Origin: Lentilactobacillus senioris DSM 24302 = JCM 17472
GTDB lineage: Bacteria > Bacillota > Bacilli > Lactobacillales > Lactobacillaceae
Direction: 5' to 3'
Assembly (NCBI RefSeq): GCF_001436555.1
Contig: NZ_AYZR01000007.1
Span: forward strand, 23,152 to 87,151
Length of the DNA: 64,000 nucleotides
Of the stretch, positions 1-60,785 are shown in pieces (positions within the stretch are counted from its first letter, which is position 1; every line of letters starts with the position of its first letter). Below the pieces are notes generated by a model. The model searched no databases. It was given only the letters and a program-made list of their open reading frames with translations, and was not told the origin of the DNA. A program made the translations under genes and the position numbers.

Positions 1-1541
1 GTACGGACTAAAAAGCTATCTCCCTGCCCCACATCAAACATTGTCACTTCTCCATTAATCGGATAGTGAATACGAATAAAACTAGTGCTGTAAAAAACAA
101 GCAACAATAGAATTTCCAATTTAGTTCGTTTCTTAATGATAATCGCAACAGTTAAAGAAAACAACATCAAAGAAGTGATTAAACCAGGTTTTCCAAACGT
201 AATCATTCCTGGCAAACTACTAATAAAATTTAAGCCAGTATTAAACTCACGAATAATAAAATTAATTAATGTCACCCCTGGCAAATTAGCCCAGTTCAGC
301 ACAACTCCTAGCAAGACTAGCGGAATAATTAATATACTAAAAATTGGTAAAATTAAAATATTAACTAACAGCGACAAACAGTGCCACTCGAAAATATGTT
401 CTAAAATAATTGGCAAACTAAGCATGCTCAACCAAAATGATTTAGAAATGGTTCCCCGATTATGCAAAATAATAAGCCCAAAAGATAACGCATAGCTAAA
501 TTGACAGGCAAGCAAAAAACATGCCGCTGGAAAGATAATAAGGTTAATTATCAAAGTAACACTCCATACGTCTAGCATACTTATCTGCCAGTTAAATAAA
601 CGACCTAAAATCTTAATTTCCGCACTCAATACTGCTCTTAACAGCCCCACACTTGCTCCAGCGAATATGAAATAAATAATTAACATTACGGCTTCTAACA
701 CTGATCGCAACTTATCCGGTAACCATTTTAATCCCCACTCAACTAACATCAATAAATAGGTTACGTGCATTCCAGAAATACTAAACAGATGTAATAATCC
801 CAGTTGGGTTACCCCCGGAGTCATTTCATAAAAATCAGTTTCTCGATAGCCACTTATTAAACCCAATGCATAAACCTTCAAATGAGCTGGTAGCTTTTGA
901 CAGTAATGATTAAATTGGGTTCTAATAACATGAATTTTATCAACTATACTTAAAGCTTCCTTTATTTGGAAATAATTAACGTGCTGCACTATTAAGCGGT
1001 TAGAAATGCTTTGTACCCGATAAAAAAATTGCGAATCAAACTGATTAAAATTGGTCGGTTTCTTAACGGGCTCAATAACTCCAGTAACTTGTAATTGAAC
1101 CGGATGAGATTGAGATAACAGCCATTGTTGCTCTTTCAGACTTTCAATGGGGATTACCACCATCACCGTCTGATTTTGTGATTGAAAGCTAATATGAGCC
1201 CTTCCAGTTAATAAATCTCCCCTAATCTGATAATGATCTGGGTAAATATCTAATTTACCATTATATTCTCCTATCATTTGGTTCTGCTCAATTAAACGTT
1301 GATTAAAACAAAACGCAGCTCCAAGATACCCAATCGCTACCAATGCAATGAGTCCCCACATTTTGCTATCTCGCAAGCAAATTATTCTAATAAGGGTTAA
1401 TGAGACTAGTACCAAACCTAGTTTCCAGTTGCCAAATAATAACATGCTAATGGCTAATAAAAATAATCCCGGAAAAAACATGGTATTAGCAACGTATTTG
1501 CTTTTTATTTTGGGAGCTTTTCTGACTAGTTGTTTAGACAC
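1..1541 (-). CDS. comEC: ComEC DNA-uptake channel protein (partial, 3' end outside window)
   Basis: Inner-membrane channel that carries transforming single-stranded DNA into the cytoplasm. Reading the minus strand from a GTG at 1541 gives about 513 residues without a stop up to the window edge. An N-terminal hydrophobic pair is followed by a soluble OB-like part, then the competence core with the motif LFSISGMHV, then many membrane segments. The last visible residues (GEVTMFDVGQGDSF) begin the metallo-beta-lactamase-like domain, which is cut off. The GTG start overlaps the comEA stop by 8 bases and has an AAAGGA site about 9 bases upstream. It is cotranscribed with comEA and would share the competence-type promoter found there. 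No frameshift was seen, so the uptake channel looks intact as far as it can be read. Confidence 0.93.
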   Translation of the reverse strand, partial: MSKQLVRKAPKIKSKYVANTMFFPGLFLLAISMLLFGNWKLGLVLVSLTLIRIICLRDSKMWGLIALVAIGYLGAAFCFNQRLIEQNQMIGEYNGKLDIYPDHYQIRGDLLTGRAHISFQSQNQTVMVVIPIESLKEQQWLLSQSHPVQLQVTGVIEPVKKPTNFNQFDSQFFYRVQSISNRLIVQHVNYFQIKEALSIVDKIHVIRTQFNHYCQKLPAHLKVYALGLISGYRETDFYEMTPGVTQLGLLHLFSISGMHVTYLLMLVEWGLKWLPDKLRSVLEAVMLIIYFIFAGASVGLLRAVLSAEIKILGRLFNWQISMLDVWSVTLIINLIIFPAACFLLACQFSYALSFGLIILHNRGTISKSFWLSMLSLPIILEHIFEWHCLSLLVNILILPIFSILIIPLVLLGVVLNWANLPGVTLINFIIREFNTGLNFISSLPGMITFGKPGLITSLMLFSLTVAIIIKKRTKLEILLLLVFYSTSFIRIHYPINGEVTMFDVGQGDSFLVR

Positions 1542-2259
1542 AAATACTATCCTTTAAATTTTCAAACGTTTTATCACCAAATCCGGATACATTCTTTAAG
1601 TCTTCAATCTGCTTAAATTGTCCGGTAGATTCCCGGTAGGCAATAATTTGTTCAGCCTTCTTTTCTCCGATACCAGTTAGCTCCTGCAATTTATTCTTAT
1701 CAGCTGTATTCAGATTAATTTTTCCACTACTAGAATTAGTAACTGAGAAACTAGAAGAGTCGCTGGAAGTCTCGCTACTAACATTCGTGCTTTCACTAGC
1801 ATTCTGCGGTTCTTGAGGTGTAATTCCTTGTTTCAAAGCATTACCTTGTATTTCTCCCTTTAATGGAACATAGATGACCTGTTGATCAGCTAATTTGCCA
1901 GCTAAATTAATTTGCTTTTTGTCTGCTGACTTAGTAAACCCTCCTGCTAAGTTAACCGCATCCTGAGTTCGCATGTTCTTAGTTACCTGATAAACTCCTG
2001 GGCGCTTAACCGCTCCTTTAACATCTACATATAACTGTTCCGTTTCTTTGGCCGCCGGAGTGCTAGAACTGCTTTTAACTGACGGTTTGGTTTTCATTAA
2101 ATCACTTTTAGTAACCGAAGATGAGGGCAACGATCCACTAACATTTCGAGGATGATTATTAGTAATAATTAACCCGCCAATCAACAGTCCAATTATTACT
2201 AACATAATAAACAAAATATGGTACAGATACTCCTCCACCACTTCCTTAATTCGTTCCAT
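1534..2259 (-). CDS. comEA: ComEA DNA-binding competence protein
   Basis: Membrane-anchored DNA receptor for transformation that hands double-stranded DNA to the ComEC channel. The 241 residues contain one N-terminal membrane segment (about 12-33), a Ser/Thr-rich linker, an SLBB-type domain (about 76-132), a second Ser-rich linker, and a C-terminal helix-hairpin-helix pair (about 180-240) with GIGEKKA and GFGDKTF hairpins. This is the full Gram-positive ComEA architecture. The ATG has a strong AAAGGAG site. The stop overlaps the comEC start. A conserved 16-base motif lies 25 bases upstream of the start codon and recurs before coiA. Confidence 0.95.
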   Translation of the reverse strand: MERIKEVVEEYLYHILFIMLVIIGLLIGGLIITNNHPRNVSGSLPSSSVTKSDLMKTKPSVKSSSSTPAAKETEQLYVDVKGAVKRPGVYQVTKNMRTQDAVNLAGGFTKSADKKQINLAGKLADQQVIYVPLKGEIQGNALKQGITPQEPQNASESTNVSSETSSDSSSFSVTNSSSGKINLNTADKNKLQELTGIGEKKAEQIIAYRESTGQFKQIEDLKNVSGFGDKTFENLKDSICV

Positions 2260-2284: not shown

Positions 2285-2300
2285 TAAGTACGAAAAAAAG
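2285..2300 (-). promoter_or_regulatory. Putative competence promoter motif upstream of comEA
   Basis: The minus strand reads CTTTTTTTCGTACTTA, ending 25 bases before the comEA ATG. The same 16 bases occur before coiA at 59581-59596. A T-tract followed by a short conserved octamer resembles the layout of ComX/SigH-type competence promoters in streptococci, but the octamer is not the streptococcal TACGAATA. The role is inferred from sharing between two competence genes. Confidence 0.6.
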
Positions 2301-2323
2301 GATTAATTAAATTAATCCTTTTG
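2292..2323 (-). terminator. Rho-independent terminator after sepM
   Basis: A perfect AT-rich hairpin (AAAAGGATTAA with its complement) is followed on the minus strand by seven T residues. It overlaps the sepM stop codon, and its T-run is also the T-tract of the putative comEA promoter. Confidence 0.75.
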
Positions 2324-51452: not shown

Positions 51453-51965
51453 TTACTTTAGCTTATCGTTTTCGTAAGTATGGGTCTTTTCCAAATGATT
51501 AAAGTTTTGTTGTCTTAAGACTTCATAAATTACAATTGCCGCACTATTAGATAAGTTAAGGGCCCGAATATTACTATCGTCTTGAGGGATTCGGATCGCT
51601 TTTTCAGGGTTTTTGCGCATAAATGGTTCTGGCAATCCCGTTGTTTCCTTCCCAAATAAGAAATAATAATCTTGATTAGGATCACTATAGTCTGGATCTA
51701 CATAGGTTTGTTCAGCAAACTTAGAAACCAAAAATAAGTTTTTAGGGTTAGCAACCGTACTAATAAAGGTTGGTAAATCTTTATGCCGGTTAATTTGAAC
51801 TTTATCCCAGTAATCTAAACCAGCCCGTTTTAAATGCTTGTCATCAATAGTAAATCCTAATGGCTCAATTAAATCCAAGACCGTATCGGTTCCGGCACAG
51901 GTTCTAGCAATATTACCAGTGTTAGCTGGCATTAAAGGTTCAAATAATACAATGTGATTAGTCAT
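51453..51965 (-). CDS. trmL: tRNA (cytidine34/uridine34-2'-O)-methyltransferase TrmL
   Basis: SPOUT-fold methyltransferase that modifies the wobble base of certain Leu tRNAs. The 170 residues have MPANTGNIARTC near the start, the knot motifs LFGKETTGLP and IRALNLSNSAAI. Family length and motifs are complete. It lies between rlmA and ftsK. Confidence 0.93.
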   Translation of the reverse strand: MTNHIVLFEPLMPANTGNIARTCAGTDTVLDLIEPLGFTIDDKHLKRAGLDYWDKVQINRHKDLPTFISTVANPKNLFLVSKFAEQTYVDPDYSDPNQDYYFLFGKETTGLPEPFMRKNPEKAIRIPQDDSNIRALNLSNSAAIVIYEVLRQQNFNHLEKTHTYENDKLK

Positions 51966-56640: not shown

Positions 56641-58446
56641 TTAGCCTTTAATTAGTTTTTCTAATTGATCTAGTCGTTGCTCAAAAATCTTAAAAGCATC
56701 CTTTAAGTATTCGGCTTGAGTCATATCCACTCCAGCTCGTTTCATAACGTTAATTGGTTGATCAGAACTACCAGCCTGTAAAAAGCTAAGATAATCAATC
56801 CGACCTTGATCACTAGCCTGAATTTTTTCAGCTAATGTGGTAGCTGCTGCAAAACCAGTTGCGTATTGGTATACATAAAAATCATAATAGAAATGTGGAA
56901 TTCGTGACCATTCTAATCTAATTTCTGGGTCAGAAATTACTGCTGGTCCATAATATTTTTGATTAAGCTTTAAGTATTCTTGATTCATAAAATCCGCAGT
57001 CAAAGGTACTCGGTTAGCATCTGCTTCATGGATCAAGCTTTCAAATTCAGCAAATTGCGTTTGTCTAAATACCGTCCCCTTAAAGCCATCTAAGTAGTAA
57101 TTCAAAACAAACTTAGTCATTTCTTCATCATCTGCAAATTTTTTCAACAGATAATCAGTTAAAATATTTTCGTTAGTTGTAGAAGCTATTTCAGCCACAA
57201 AAATGGAATAGTCACCATATTGGTATGGTTGAGCTTGATGAGAATAAAAGCTATGCATACTATGGCCCGTCTCGTGGATCAAGGTATAGAGATTATCCAA
57301 ATTATCTTGCCAATTTAACAAAATAAACGGATTAGTATCGTACATACCGGAAGAATAACCTCCACTACGTTTATATTGATTCTCTATTACATCAATCCAA
57401 CGACCATCAAATTCTTTTTGAACGGCGTTTACGTAATCTGGTCCCATGACTTCTAATGCAGCTAACGATAATTTTTGGGCTTGATCGTAAGTAATTTTAG
57501 GACTCTTGGTTTTCATTAACGGAGTATATAAATCGTACATGTGTAGATCAGTAACCCCTAAAATTTGCTTACGCAATTCCACGTATCGATGTAATAAATC
57601 TAAGTGATTGTTCACCTCGTCAATTAAAGTGGTAAATACCGCCGTTGGAATTTCATTTTCAGCTAGTGCCGCGTCGAGGGCACTATCATAGTGACGCAAG
57701 TTGGCACTTAAATTATGTGTCTTAACTGTAGCGGCTAACGTCGAGGCTAACGTGTGTTGAAATTGTTCATAAACTGAATATAGTTTCGTAAAAGCTTCTC
57801 TTCTAACTTTGACATCAGCTGACTCCAATAAGACGCTATAGACCCCTTGAGATAGTTGAACATCTTGTCCCGCGTCATTTTTAACTATTGGAAAACTAAG
57901 ATCAGTATTATCTAAAATACCGAATGTTTTAGCACTAGCTTCAAAAATATCACTAGCAGAAGCTAAAACTCCCTCGACTTCAGGACTCAATACGTGCGCT
58001 TTCTTAGCCATAATCACGTCTAAGAAACGTCGGTAATGTTCTAACTCGGGAACTTGCTGATAGAATTGATCCAATTTATCAGTGTCAATCAATAAAACCG
58101 CTGGTTCAAACCAGGCCGTTTTTTCAGCAAAACTAGTTAAAAGGGCTTCTGCTCGATCGTTTTGCACCTGACTATCATTATCATGAGTATCTTGATCGTT
58201 TTTTAGTTGTGCATATACTGCCAACTTTTCTACTTGCCGGCCTACTTCTAATAACATTTGGATTGCTTTTAGCAACTGATGGCCATCATTTAATTCATGG
58301 GCTTGCTGATCAATTAAGCCTAGATTTTCTTGAGCTACCTCAAAGGCTTTTTCAAAATCAGCCTCGTCCTTAAAAATCGTTGTTAAATCCCAAGTTAATT
58401 CTTCAGGAACCTCATTTCGTTGAGGAAGTTTCTTAACCATTGTCAT
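56641..58446 (-). CDS. pepF: Oligoendopeptidase F (M3 metallopeptidase)
   Basis: Cytosolic zinc peptidase that cleaves 7-17-residue peptides. ATG 58446, about ten bases after AGGAG, gives 601 residues; the more upstream GTG abuts the site. The zinc-binding HETGH is near residue 390, with a glutamate ligand about 25 residues later. It starts one base after the coiA stop and is cotranscribed with it, as in Bacillus and Streptococcus. Confidence 0.94.
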   Translation of the reverse strand: MTMVKKLPQRNEVPEELTWDLTTIFKDEADFEKAFEVAQENLGLIDQQAHELNDGHQLLKAIQMLLEVGRQVEKLAVYAQLKNDQDTHDNDSQVQNDRAEALLTSFAEKTAWFEPAVLLIDTDKLDQFYQQVPELEHYRRFLDVIMAKKAHVLSPEVEGVLASASDIFEASAKTFGILDNTDLSFPIVKNDAGQDVQLSQGVYSVLLESADVKVRREAFTKLYSVYEQFQHTLASTLAATVKTHNLSANLRHYDSALDAALAENEIPTAVFTTLIDEVNNHLDLLHRYVELRKQILGVTDLHMYDLYTPLMKTKSPKITYDQAQKLSLAALEVMGPDYVNAVQKEFDGRWIDVIENQYKRSGGYSSGMYDTNPFILLNWQDNLDNLYTLIHETGHSMHSFYSHQAQPYQYGDYSIFVAEIASTTNENILTDYLLKKFADDEEMTKFVLNYYLDGFKGTVFRQTQFAEFESLIHEADANRVPLTADFMNQEYLKLNQKYYGPAVISDPEIRLEWSRIPHFYYDFYVYQYATGFAAATTLAEKIQASDQGRIDYLSFLQAGSSDQPINVMKRAGVDMTQAEYLKDAFKIFEQRLDQLEKLIKG

Positions 58447-58447
58447 C

Positions 58448-59554
58448 TTAGGCACTCTCCTTTTTTCTCTCTTGCAACCAGAACCTTTTCTTTTGATCCC
58501 AATCTAAAAACCATTTCGGTCGCTTCGTAATAATTACTTTATCATAAGTTTGCTTTAAGTACCCATTAGTAGCTAATTCTTGAAGATATTGTAAAAAAGC
58601 TAACCGGTAAAATCGTTGACAATTAGGGATTTGGTGAAACATTATTCCATAAATTTCAACGGTTTCTTTGAAAATTAGATTGAGTTTTTGCTTAGTCAAC
58701 CAATCAGTTTTACCGCGAAAAATCTTTAAAACAACTAGAATTCGCCAAAATAACGTGTGACCCCCAAAGATTGGAAACTGTGCTTCTTTAGGATGACAAA
58801 TTATCGGACACGCTGGTAAAATTTTGCCATCTTGATAACATTGCGTCACCATAAAAATAAGGGTTTCTTTTTGGAGTTTAATTTGGCTATTAATAGATTC
58901 TAATTGCTTAATATGCTGGTTAATCGCAATTTGGGGCTGATGTAATTGACATTGCTGATGATACTGTTTTAATTCTTGATAAGTTTGGTGACTGGACTGC
59001 TGATACCTATAATGCCCTGCCACCTCTACAATATCAGTCCATAAAACAAAATGTCTTACTTTAGCATCCCAAAATAAAAGGTAAAATCCCCAATTAACAT
59101 CAAATCGAGCAAATTTAGCCAAAGTTTGGGTTGTTAACTTACGTTTTAAATAGGTATTGCCTAAAATCCAGATTACTTGCAGGCCAATTTGAAGATATCC
59201 TTGGGTCCGTTGCTGTAAACTAACCTGATCAATAGGACTACATTGATATTCCAATGCAATCTTCGCCGAAGGCAAGTAAACATCCGCACGCTGCTCAATG
59301 TCTGCAAATATCGTCTCTACTTGCGTATCTGGATAAAGTTCTTGAGCCATTTGCATTAACGCCAGCTTCCCACTTAAATGCAATTGACTTTCATTTTCGC
59401 TTAACTTATTACAATTAGCATTTTTATGGGCAAAATGGGCAACCTTAATTCCTCCACGCTTCAAAATTACCGGTTGATTACATCCCGGACAAGTAAATTG
59501 TTGCCCTACTTTCGCTTCATCAGCCAATACCAATACACCATTTCTTTTTGCCAT
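58448..59554 (-). CDS. coiA: Competence protein CoiA
   Basis: Late-competence protein that promotes recombination of incoming DNA. ATG 59554 gives 368 residues (a GTG two codons earlier is also possible). The N-terminal zinc-finger-like block has Cys22, Cys25, His43 and Cys48, followed by a nuclease-like domain with EYQCS (about 105-109), and a variable C-terminal half. The 16-base motif shared with comEA ends 26 bases upstream. Confidence 0.92.
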   Translation of the reverse strand: MAKRNGVLVLADEAKVGQQFTCPGCNQPVILKRGGIKVAHFAHKNANCNKLSENESQLHLSGKLALMQMAQELYPDTQVETIFADIEQRADVYLPSAKIALEYQCSPIDQVSLQQRTQGYLQIGLQVIWILGNTYLKRKLTTQTLAKFARFDVNWGFYLLFWDAKVRHFVLWTDIVEVAGHYRYQQSSHQTYQELKQYHQQCQLHQPQIAINQHIKQLESINSQIKLQKETLIFMVTQCYQDGKILPACPIICHPKEAQFPIFGGHTLFWRILVVLKIFRGKTDWLTKQKLNLIFKETVEIYGIMFHQIPNCQRFYRLAFLQYLQELATNGYLKQTYDKVIITKRPKWFLDWDQKKRFWLQERKKESA

Positions 59555-59580
59555 TAGCACTTAACCTCACCTCTAGAAAC

Positions 59581-59596
59581 TAAGTACGAAAAAAAG
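59581..59596 (-). promoter_or_regulatory. Putative competence promoter motif upstream of coiA
   Basis: The minus strand reads CTTTTTTTCGTACTTA, identical to 2285-2300 before comEA. It lies just downstream of the mecA terminator, where a new promoter is needed. Confidence 0.6.
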
Positions 59597-59608
59597 AAAT
59601 GATGAGAC

Positions 59609-59637
59609 TAAAAAAACACCCACTCAAGGGTGTTTTA
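59609..59637 (-). terminator. Terminator after mecA
   Basis: AAAACACCC and GGGTGTTTT form a stem around a 6-base loop with a following T-run. It overlaps the mecA stop codon and isolates coiA from mecA transcription. Confidence 0.85.
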
Positions 59638-60288
59638 AAGTTGAGTTCGACCAATTTGAAGGGCATTACCCGCCATTAATAAAGTACCATGCTCATGTAA
59701 AACATCAGCAGTTACCTTGGTCTTTTCAGCAAATTCACTAGCAATCGCCACCACATCACTGACACTCATATCAATATCAGAATCAGTATTTAACTTTAAT
59801 TCCAAGAAGAATTTATCCTGGAAACGATAGAGGTTTGCTAATCCGTTATCGATTTCTAACGCCCGACTCAGTGCCAAAAAATCAGCAAATGATTTAAAGG
59901 TTAAGATCGTTGTTGAAACAGTTGGTGCATATGGGTCATTTTTAGGTTCTGAACTAGTTGGATAGCTTGCTGGCTCTGCAGTTAGTGACTCACTATTTTT
60001 TAATAGATCGGAAACGTCGATTCCATCACTCTTATCATTTTGAGAAAATGGTGTGGCCTTACTGATAAACAGCTCCAGCCCATCTTGGTTGGGTAATACT
60101 TGGAAGGTTACCGCTTCATTATCTTGGAATTGGTGATTTTGGTCAACTTCTTCCAAAATACTATAAAAGAAACTTTCAATTTGTTTTTGGTTTCCTAACA
60201 AATCCAACATTCGAATTCCACGGGCATCAAGATCGTCATTATCAATCAAAACCCGAATCGTATCTTTGTTAATTCTTTCCATTTCCAT
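59635..60288 (-). CDS. mecA: Adaptor protein MecA
   Basis: ClpC adaptor that delivers substrates for degradation; in Bacillus ComK and in streptococci ComX. The 217 residues begin MEMERINKDTIRVLI and have the N-terminal substrate-binding domain (about 1-80), a Ser/Asp/Pro-rich linker and a C-terminal Clp-binding domain (from about 130). It sits between spxA and coiA, and its presence alongside com genes fits proteolytic control of competence. Confidence 0.93.
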   Translation of the reverse strand: MEMERINKDTIRVLIDNDDLDARGIRMLDLLGNQKQIESFFYSILEEVDQNHQFQDNEAVTFQVLPNQDGLELFISKATPFSQNDKSDGIDVSDLLKNSESLTAEPASYPTSSEPKNDPYAPTVSTTILTFKSFADFLALSRALEIDNGLANLYRFQDKFFLELKLNTDSDIDMSVSDVVAIASEFAEKTKVTADVLHEHGTLLMAGNALQIGRTQL

Positions 60289-60331
60289 TTCTAGCCACCC
60301 CTTTCAAATATCGGATACACTCGTACTCAAT

Positions 60332-60359
60332 ATTGTACCATGAATCTAACAGGTGTAAA
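60332..60359 (-). promoter_or_regulatory. Promoter of mecA
   Basis: The minus strand shows TTTACA (60354-60359), 16 bases, then TACAAT (60332-60337) with a TGG extension. Confidence 0.6.
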
Positions 60360-60389
60360 TCATTTGACTAGAAATGTCACCACTTTTCT

Positions 60390-60785
60390 TTAAGCGTCAG
60401 CGAGCATTCTTTCCAGGTCCAGTTTTCTAATTTTTCTAGGAAGGAAGCGGCGAATTTCATCGTCATTATAGCCTACTTGTAGTCTTCTAGTATCAATCAT
60501 AATTGGCCGACGAATCATTTCTGGATGTTTTACTAATAAATCTAGCAATTCATCTAAAGTAGCTTCTTGAATTTTTTTCTTAAATACCTTGTAAGTATCG
60601 GAACGGGTAGAAATTAAATCATCAGTCCCAGTTTCTGATAACCGCAAAATGTATTTTAATTCAGCCTTGGAAAGTGGATCCACAAAAATATTTCTTTCAG
60701 TATAGTCCACATCGTGTTCGTTTAACCAGGCTTTGGCTTTGCGACAGGAAGTACAGCTAGGGGTTGTTAAAAAATCAATAGTCAT
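60390..60785 (-). CDS. spxA: Transcriptional regulator Spx
   Basis: ArsC-fold regulator that binds the RNA polymerase alpha C-terminal domain and responds to thiol stress. The 131 residues contain the redox CxxC at Cys11/Cys14 (CTSCRKAKAWL) and the conserved LSETGTDDLISTRS and RRPIMIDTRRLQVGYN segments. A GGAGG site precedes the ATG. Bacillus spx regulates its own thiol stress regulon and is degraded through YjbH-ClpXP; a YjbH homologue lies in this window. Confidence 0.95.
   Translation of the reverse strand: MTIDFLTTPSCTSCRKAKAWLNEHDVDYTERNIFVDPLSKAELKYILRLSETGTDDLISTRSDTYKVFKKKIQEATLDELLDLLVKHPEMIRRPIMIDTRRLQVGYNDDEIRRFLPRKIRKLDLERMLADA

Follow-up and report, generated by a model that had tools for sequence, protein, structure and literature searches.

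A conserved CGTA-containing element upstream of competence genes in Lentilactobacillus senioris and its relatives, a candidate competence promoter box

Introduction

In Bacillus subtilis, promoters read by SigH carry a -35 element of the AGGA type and a GAAT-type -10 element. The streptococcal SigX/ComX box (also cin-box or com-box) has a T-rich -25 region, and in the boxes tabulated for Streptococcus mitis a T-tract is followed by the octamer TACGAATA, or something close to it, and then by the ATG (PMC6001120). Such boxes are tabulated before coiA, dprA, ssb, comGA, comFA, comEA, cinA and cilC, mostly at ~17–25 nt: at coiA and dprA the T-tract is joined directly to the octamer, 21–22 nt from the ATG; at comGA, comEA, cinA and radC it lies 8–10 nt upstream of the octamer; and at cilC the distance to the ATG is 7 nt (PMC6001120).

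In Latilactobacillus sakei, overexpression of SigH raised comFA, comEA, comGC, comC and dprA 261- to 2163-fold as measured by qPCR, with ssb (1.2) and recA (2.7) hardly induced, and no transformation was observed; the same article describes Lactobacillales as being without a ComK homologue, and a term search of its main text found no named promoter motif (PMC3364868). A 2025 review regards natural transformation as feasible for just a small number of lactic acid bacteria (PMC12470161). Titles and abstracts of the open-licence literature, among the matches listed and supplements aside, described no SigH or ComX box for lactobacilli; PMC3616900 excludes sigma factors, and a term search of PMC10949432 matched no com terms. 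An earlier description of the box elsewhere is possible.

Here, we follow up an earlier note on a 64-kb stretch of Lentilactobacillus senioris DNA (the window), which had proposed a competence promoter from a 16-base motif shared by coiA and comEA. Computation establishes the position of the motif's core, its conservation and its specificity for competence genes.

Results

The window contains just two exact copies of the motif, CTTTTTTTCGTACTTA, one upstream of comEA and the other upstream of coiA, and both lie on the minus strand, the coding strand of these genes (Table 1). The claim of an identical 16-mer before the two genes therefore stands; with up to two mismatches allowed, the window holds no further match (0.12 expected), and none of 100 window shuffles had two. 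In the whole 1.57 Mb assembly, the 12-base TTTTCGTACTTA is found at these two positions only. The spacings given in the earlier note proved accurate as well: 25 nt lie between the comEA box and its ATG (2259) and 26 nt between the coiA box and its ATG (59554), the latter shrinking to 20 nt if an in-frame GTG at 59560 is the start. The octamer that had been put forward as the motif, CGTACTTA, is present at both sites, but represents a special case of a less strict core, CGTANNTA. Over the entire window this looser core is not enriched (28 observed vs 24.4 expected), so the signal resides in its position. The second gene of the comEA operon is presumably comEC, a name based on its place in the operon and on sequence features. 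A third window occurrence of TTTNCGTANNTA (51469–51480), which lies opposite the end of a 170-codon frame, was set aside by inspection.

Table 1. Features of the window around the two candidate boxes
Feature	Position	Strand	Evidence
Presumed comEC, following comEA in the operon, cut by the window edge	3..1541	-	771 codons open in the genome
comEA (SLBB and helix-hairpin-helix)	1534..2259	-	Pfam PF10531, PF12836
Candidate competence promoter box, comEA-comEC	2285..2300	-	exact CTTTTTTTCGTACTTA; core CGTACTTA 2285-2292, T-tract 2293-2299
Hairpin with the T-tract of the comEA box as its 3' tail	2296..2322	-	RNA fold -11.7 kcal/mol, z -4.2
coiA	58448..59560	-	Pfam PF06054, 2e-28
Candidate competence promoter box, coiA	59581..59596	-	exact CTTTTTTTCGTACTTA; core CGTACTTA 59581-59588, T-tract upstream of core
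Terminator-like hairpin between mecA and the coiA box	59613..59636	-	terminator scan, RNA fold
mecA, upstream neighbour of coiA	59635..60288	-	Pfam PF05389, 5.9e-49

Each box has a hairpin beside it. The one at comEA is likely the terminator of the upstream gene, which matches the Pfam families of a PDZ/Lon-type protease (PF13180, PF05362); a terminator scan requiring G-C pairs listed none at this hairpin. On the coiA side, the hairpin extends to 59613, with the motif starting 16 nt beyond it. The motif had been described as sitting just past or within the terminator of an unrelated gene. A hairpin is indeed found at both sites, but the gene before coiA cannot be called unrelated, because mecA belongs to a family of competence regulators. 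On the minus strand of 56641–60785 the gene order is spx-like, mecA, coiA and pepF-like; mecA, of a family of competence inhibitors, directly precedes coiA, with the terminator-like hairpin and the box in between. We take the gene near mecA to be spx-like, its Pfam match being to the ArsC family.

A sigma-70 promoter of the form TTGACA-16/18-TATAAT was found on the minus strand neither within 2200–2500 nor within 59500–59800, and a housekeeping promoter on the coding strand at the window boxes was rejected on this ground. The missing TTGACA/TATAAT pair also weighs against the idea that an unknown activator uses the box as its operator and works with the housekeeping sigma factor. A core that is short and fixed in place, with weakly shared A-rich and T-rich stretches farther upstream, would suit such an operator, but its location ~20 nt before the start, with the ribosome binding site right after it, is the place of a -10 element, and the core is by inspection not palindromic. 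Lactobacillales are, moreover, described as lacking ComK (PMC3364868), and we give the operator idea little credence.

Had the motif a role in competence, the earlier note reasoned, it should recur before comGA, comFA, comC, dprA, recA or ssb, and in this genome sites are present before comGA, dprA, comFA, comC and rpsF-ssb. They comprise TTTTTTCGTATGTA 19 nt before the ATG of comGA, TTTATCGTATTTA 21 nt before the start codon of dprA, TTCTTCGTATTTA 70 nt before that of comFA and TTTTTTTCGTATTTA 140 nt before that of rpsF-ssb, each differing from TTTTTCGTACTTA at 1 or 2 positions, as well as TTTTCGTATCTT 17 nt before the start of comC, which has 4 changes from TTTTTCGTACTTA, including one in its core (CGTATCTT). 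Boxes thus precede all five operon types induced in L. sakei (comFA, comE, comG, comC, dprA), and the likeness to that SigH regulon extends to the same late competence genes and the same sigma factor family (PMC3364868). Further sites lie 20 nt before tag (3-methyladenine glycosylase), 21 nt before a gene for an XerC-type recombinase and 24 nt before tlyA. These sites come from relaxed searches, one of them listed up to the first 100 of its 124 matches, and Pfam served to check family membership for CoiA, DprA, Tag, XerC-type, TlyA-type, ComC, ComEA, ComGA, S6, SSB and MecA, for the comFA-type helicase and for the CinA of one relative.

An exact TTTTTCGTAYNTA has 8 matches in this genome, compared with 1 for the backwards pattern; six of them precede comEA, coiA, comGA, rpsF, xerC and a 55-codon frame, and no fitting gene follows the remaining two (L005, L010). 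The looser TTYTTCGTAYTTA with one mismatch shows a small excess only (33 matches vs 19 for the backwards pattern). Upon inspection, L010, L047 and L208 were set aside as the apparent start of an opposite-strand gene, and L041 on account of a nearby TATAAT. The 55-codon frame, whose exact box (L028:1501-1513, minus strand; G000:C3:195811) ends 27 nt before it, is near an integrase-like gene and may be a mobile-element gene answering to competence.

Conservation was assessed at comEA, comGA, dprA and cinA loci of 24 genomes of the genus, picked by protein similarity and not by motif. CGTANNTA lies 10–60 nt before the start codon in 78/90 competence loci (comEA 20/23, comGA 18/22, dprA 22/24, cinA 18/21) as opposed to 1/194 other genes. 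Left out of the 90 were three cinA rows, namely the long forms of this genome (L303, with CGTATTTA ~94 nt before the likely ATG and hence outside the counted window) and of G014 (L305) and a short form in G002 (L304, no core in the locus); entered as misses, they give 18/24 for cinA and 78/93 in total. Likewise left out were the comEA of G023 (L091, a broken gene; the exact box is present in L188) and the comGA of G010 (no match) and of G023 (L326, a broken gene that carries CGTAATTA).

A stricter form, CGTAHNTA, separates competence loci from controls with Fisher P values of 6e-19 to 4e-24 per gene, is retained in 60/77 loci after upstream regions ≥75% alike are dropped, and stands 18–27 nt from the start codon in the comEA, comGA, dprA and cinA loci that carry it. 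Reversed, complemented or scrambled cores scored 0 in the competence sets, except for dprA (1/24), with 0–2 matches among the 194 controls. When words of six shapes were enumerated, one of these shapes fitting the motif already known, CGTANNTA had the highest count among the 25 words listed and ranked third by ratio (78 vs 1), the top two overlapping the same element. Anchoring on CGTA alone, which occurs at -45 to -15 in 13/194 controls, yielded 87 sites with T at +6 in 87/87 and A at +7 in 90%, two varying positions in between, and T at -4 to -2 in 78–85%. The core is missing from 12/90 loci, of which 9 keep CGTA and a near match; L248 and L250 are without a CGTA near match, and L279 has CGGA.

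How much of the box is terminator? A run of at least five T's before the core is found in comEA 23/23, comGA 4/20, dprA 11/23 and cinA 9/21, which makes the full T-run a rule in comEA only. A hairpin abuts the T-tract in 22/23 comEA loci, and T-run plus abutting hairpin occur elsewhere in comGA 3/20, dprA 2/23 and cinA 7/21; sharing of T-tract and terminator is consequently mainly a comEA trait, and a T-tract alone is not the box. These figures bear directly on the notion that the motif is an accident, a terminator remnant in which T-tracts happen to adjoin a random octamer. The near-universal comEA hairpin and the unenriched CGTANNTA across the window are in keeping with such an accident, but dprA, comGA and cinA keep the core despite seldom having a T-run with a hairpin, and by position the contrast is 78/90 against 1/194. 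The 194-gene control leads us to reject this notion, to which we assign a negligible chance. The box itself is real and common to the relatives.

Exact TTTTTCGTAYNTA occurs 96 times in the 24 genomes, compared with 21 for the backwards pattern. The DNA around all 96 matches was scanned, four stretches being cut by contig ends and one containing masked bases. By BLAST against the proteins of the present genome, a reference gene lies downstream of 38 matches (comEA 19, rpsF 6, coiA 4, comC 2, comGA 2, xerC 2, dprA 1, tag 1, the 55-codon frame 1), and five more stand before cinA, identified from the translation and by agreement in position with the CinA search. In all, 39/96 lie before canonical competence genes or ssb, and 53/96 have no assigned gene, several of them lying before varied genes or without a downstream frame. 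As a definition of the box the exact 13-mer was rejected as too strict, since in relatives the T-run is missing from many dprA, comGA and cinA sites that retain CGTANNTA. In three genomes (L165 in G010, L206 in G016, L220 in G021) an exact box stands 17–33 nt upstream of genes whose products look secreted; these may be additional members of the regulon, or the matches may be background.

A ComGA search of genome contigs gave 6 loci, 4 of them from lactobacilli, and the closest named ComGA was that of L. senioris, at 84% identity. Outside the genus, the set comprised 39 comGA and 6 comEA loci, with counts that are lower bounds, the start codon being doubtful in several rows (G024, G026, G030, G045, G058). 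Among comGA loci of the Lactobacillaceae type (family f1 and Ligilactobacillus), the full core is present in at least 7/16 and CGAAT in 0/16. Families f3, f5 and f6 have CGTA in 7/7 and the full CGTANNTA in at least 2/7; f2, f7, f8 and f9 together have, as lower bounds, CGTANNTA in 0/13 and CGAAT in 4/13. CGAAT is found in 3/3 comGA loci of family f4, a family of the same order, which from its sigma sequences and its box we read as probably streptococcal; its sigma gene presumably resembles ComX. For comEA, the core occurs in 1/3 f1 loci (a lower bound), and the single f4 locus reads TTTTTACGAATA, with the octamer TACGAATA.

Which sigma factor might read the box? The Pfam region-2 model detects RpoD and three smaller sigma-like genes in this genome, one of them below cut-off. 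A SigH-type gene is located at C3:40279-40821 (L053:1435-1980, without stop codon), flanked by what we take to be rlmB/yacP and, at its opposite side, rpmG, secE and nusG. Codon 51 is an in-frame TAA, and the gene is otherwise open. The ortholog is matched in 24/24 genomes of the genus and interrupted here and in G020, leaving 22 of the 23 other genomes with no stop in the match. Relative to the closest relative, dS/dN is 1.19/0.08 for sigH, 1.43/0.10 for comGA, 1.63/0.11 for dprA and 1.41/0.09 for the second sigma gene described below, dS being near saturation; sigH resembles the other three genes in this respect, and its ratio indicates that it was under selection until recently. The boxes and com genes checked in this genome are intact and, given this together with the purifying selection on sigH, the loss looks recent, or else the interruption may be an assembly error. 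Judged by eye, region 4 is apparently shortened in the SigH of the genus and in the f4 factors, which would fit the absence of a strong -35 element.

The second gene encodes a sigma-70-like protein of 185 aa (L055:1417-1974; G000:C8:394325-394879), and it may be this small factor, rather than SigH, that reads the box. Its gene is open in this genome, which has an interrupted sigH and window boxes in exact agreement with the consensus; the L055 type is matched in 20/24 genomes of the genus (in G002 and G007 only partially), and the four genomes without a match keep the core at 10/15 sites compared with 68/75 in the others. Those four are divided, however: G009 and G011 keep 3/8 sites, but G010 and G018 keep 7/7 without any L055 match. 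SigH, for its part, is matched in 24/24 genomes, and its overexpression turns on these very genes in L. sakei (PMC3364868). The preference for SigH comes from two sources only, the genomes G010 and G018 and the L. sakei experiment. We consider a reading by the L055 factor unlikely.

Discussion

How does the element relate to described promoters? In layout, place and gene set it is similar to the streptococcal SigX/ComX box, from which it differs in having CGTANNTA where that box has CGAATA, that is, CGTA for CGAA. The T-tract directly precedes the core in the genus sites, as in the tabulated S. mitis boxes of coiA and dprA and unlike those of comGA, comEA and cinA (PMC6001120). The streptococcal octamer TACGAATA is absent from both window sites, which carry CGTACTTA instead. 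The earlier note had stressed this difference; it exists, but is smaller than was claimed, because the streptococcal box is the CGAA form of a similar layout. B. subtilis SigH belongs, by gene neighbourhood, to the same sigma family as the factor considered here, but in contrast to its promoters the genus sites have neither a strongly conserved -35-like element nor GAAT. The element is therefore best called the CGTA form of the competence sigma box, a variant within a known promoter type.

We propose, with a probability of roughly 80%, that the motif is a -10-like element of SigH promoters which switches on genes for DNA uptake and recombination together. The competence-promoter interpretation of the earlier note draws support from the com-gene sites and from the genus test, with CGTANNTA as the only near-fixed part; the promoter role of the box and its reading by SigH are inferred. 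The best candidate reader would be the SigH ortholog, by analogy with L. sakei, where SigH drives the same genes (PMC3364868). The box would have roughly the form TTTnCGTANNTA, in which a T-rich stretch leads into the near-fixed core; ~20 nt that hold little beyond a ribosome binding site then separate the core from the start codon. Transcription would start a few nucleotides past the core, and it would be the SigH holoenzyme, and not another factor, that reads the box. In the present genome, the regulon would be silent or weak because sigH stops after 50 codons. Several observations run counter to the proposal: the 12 core misses among 90 loci and the short-form cinA of G002 with no core, the lower retention of the core in genomes with no L055 match, the long spacings at comFA and rpsF, the changed core of comC, the partial retention of the full core outside the genus, the scant induction of ssb and recA in L. 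sakei (PMC3364868), and the 53 exact matches with no assigned gene.

A broader version, to which we assign slightly less than an even chance, would make CGTANNTA after a T-tract the family-wide SigH element of Lactobacillaceae, arisen from the streptococcal CGAATA by an A-to-T switch that accompanied, inside a single order, the exchange of one sigma factor for another; the comEA T-tract would double as a terminator, tag, xerC and tlyA would belong to the regulon in this lineage, and this strain would retain its regulon intact after a very recent loss of the sigma gene. If true, the same bases at comEA would end one transcript and start the competence transcript.

A defined promoter element would offer a direct readout of the competence state and allow the regulon to be listed in any genome. 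It also allows a test of silent competence, in that the boxes are intact here and the sigma gene is interrupted, and the CGTA/CGAA split makes the co-evolution of sigma factor and promoter testable within one order. In-frame stops were seen in comGA (L241, L243, L244 and L326, from G021, G012, G018 and G023, respectively) and in dprA (L279, G009), from which it follows that competence genes decay repeatedly in the genus. On the minus strand of L054 (1234-1749), an ECF-type sigma factor gene (PF08281, PF04542) is followed by what may be, as we assume, a membrane-bound partner, and a presumed dnaB-like helicase gene, named by eye, lies nearby.
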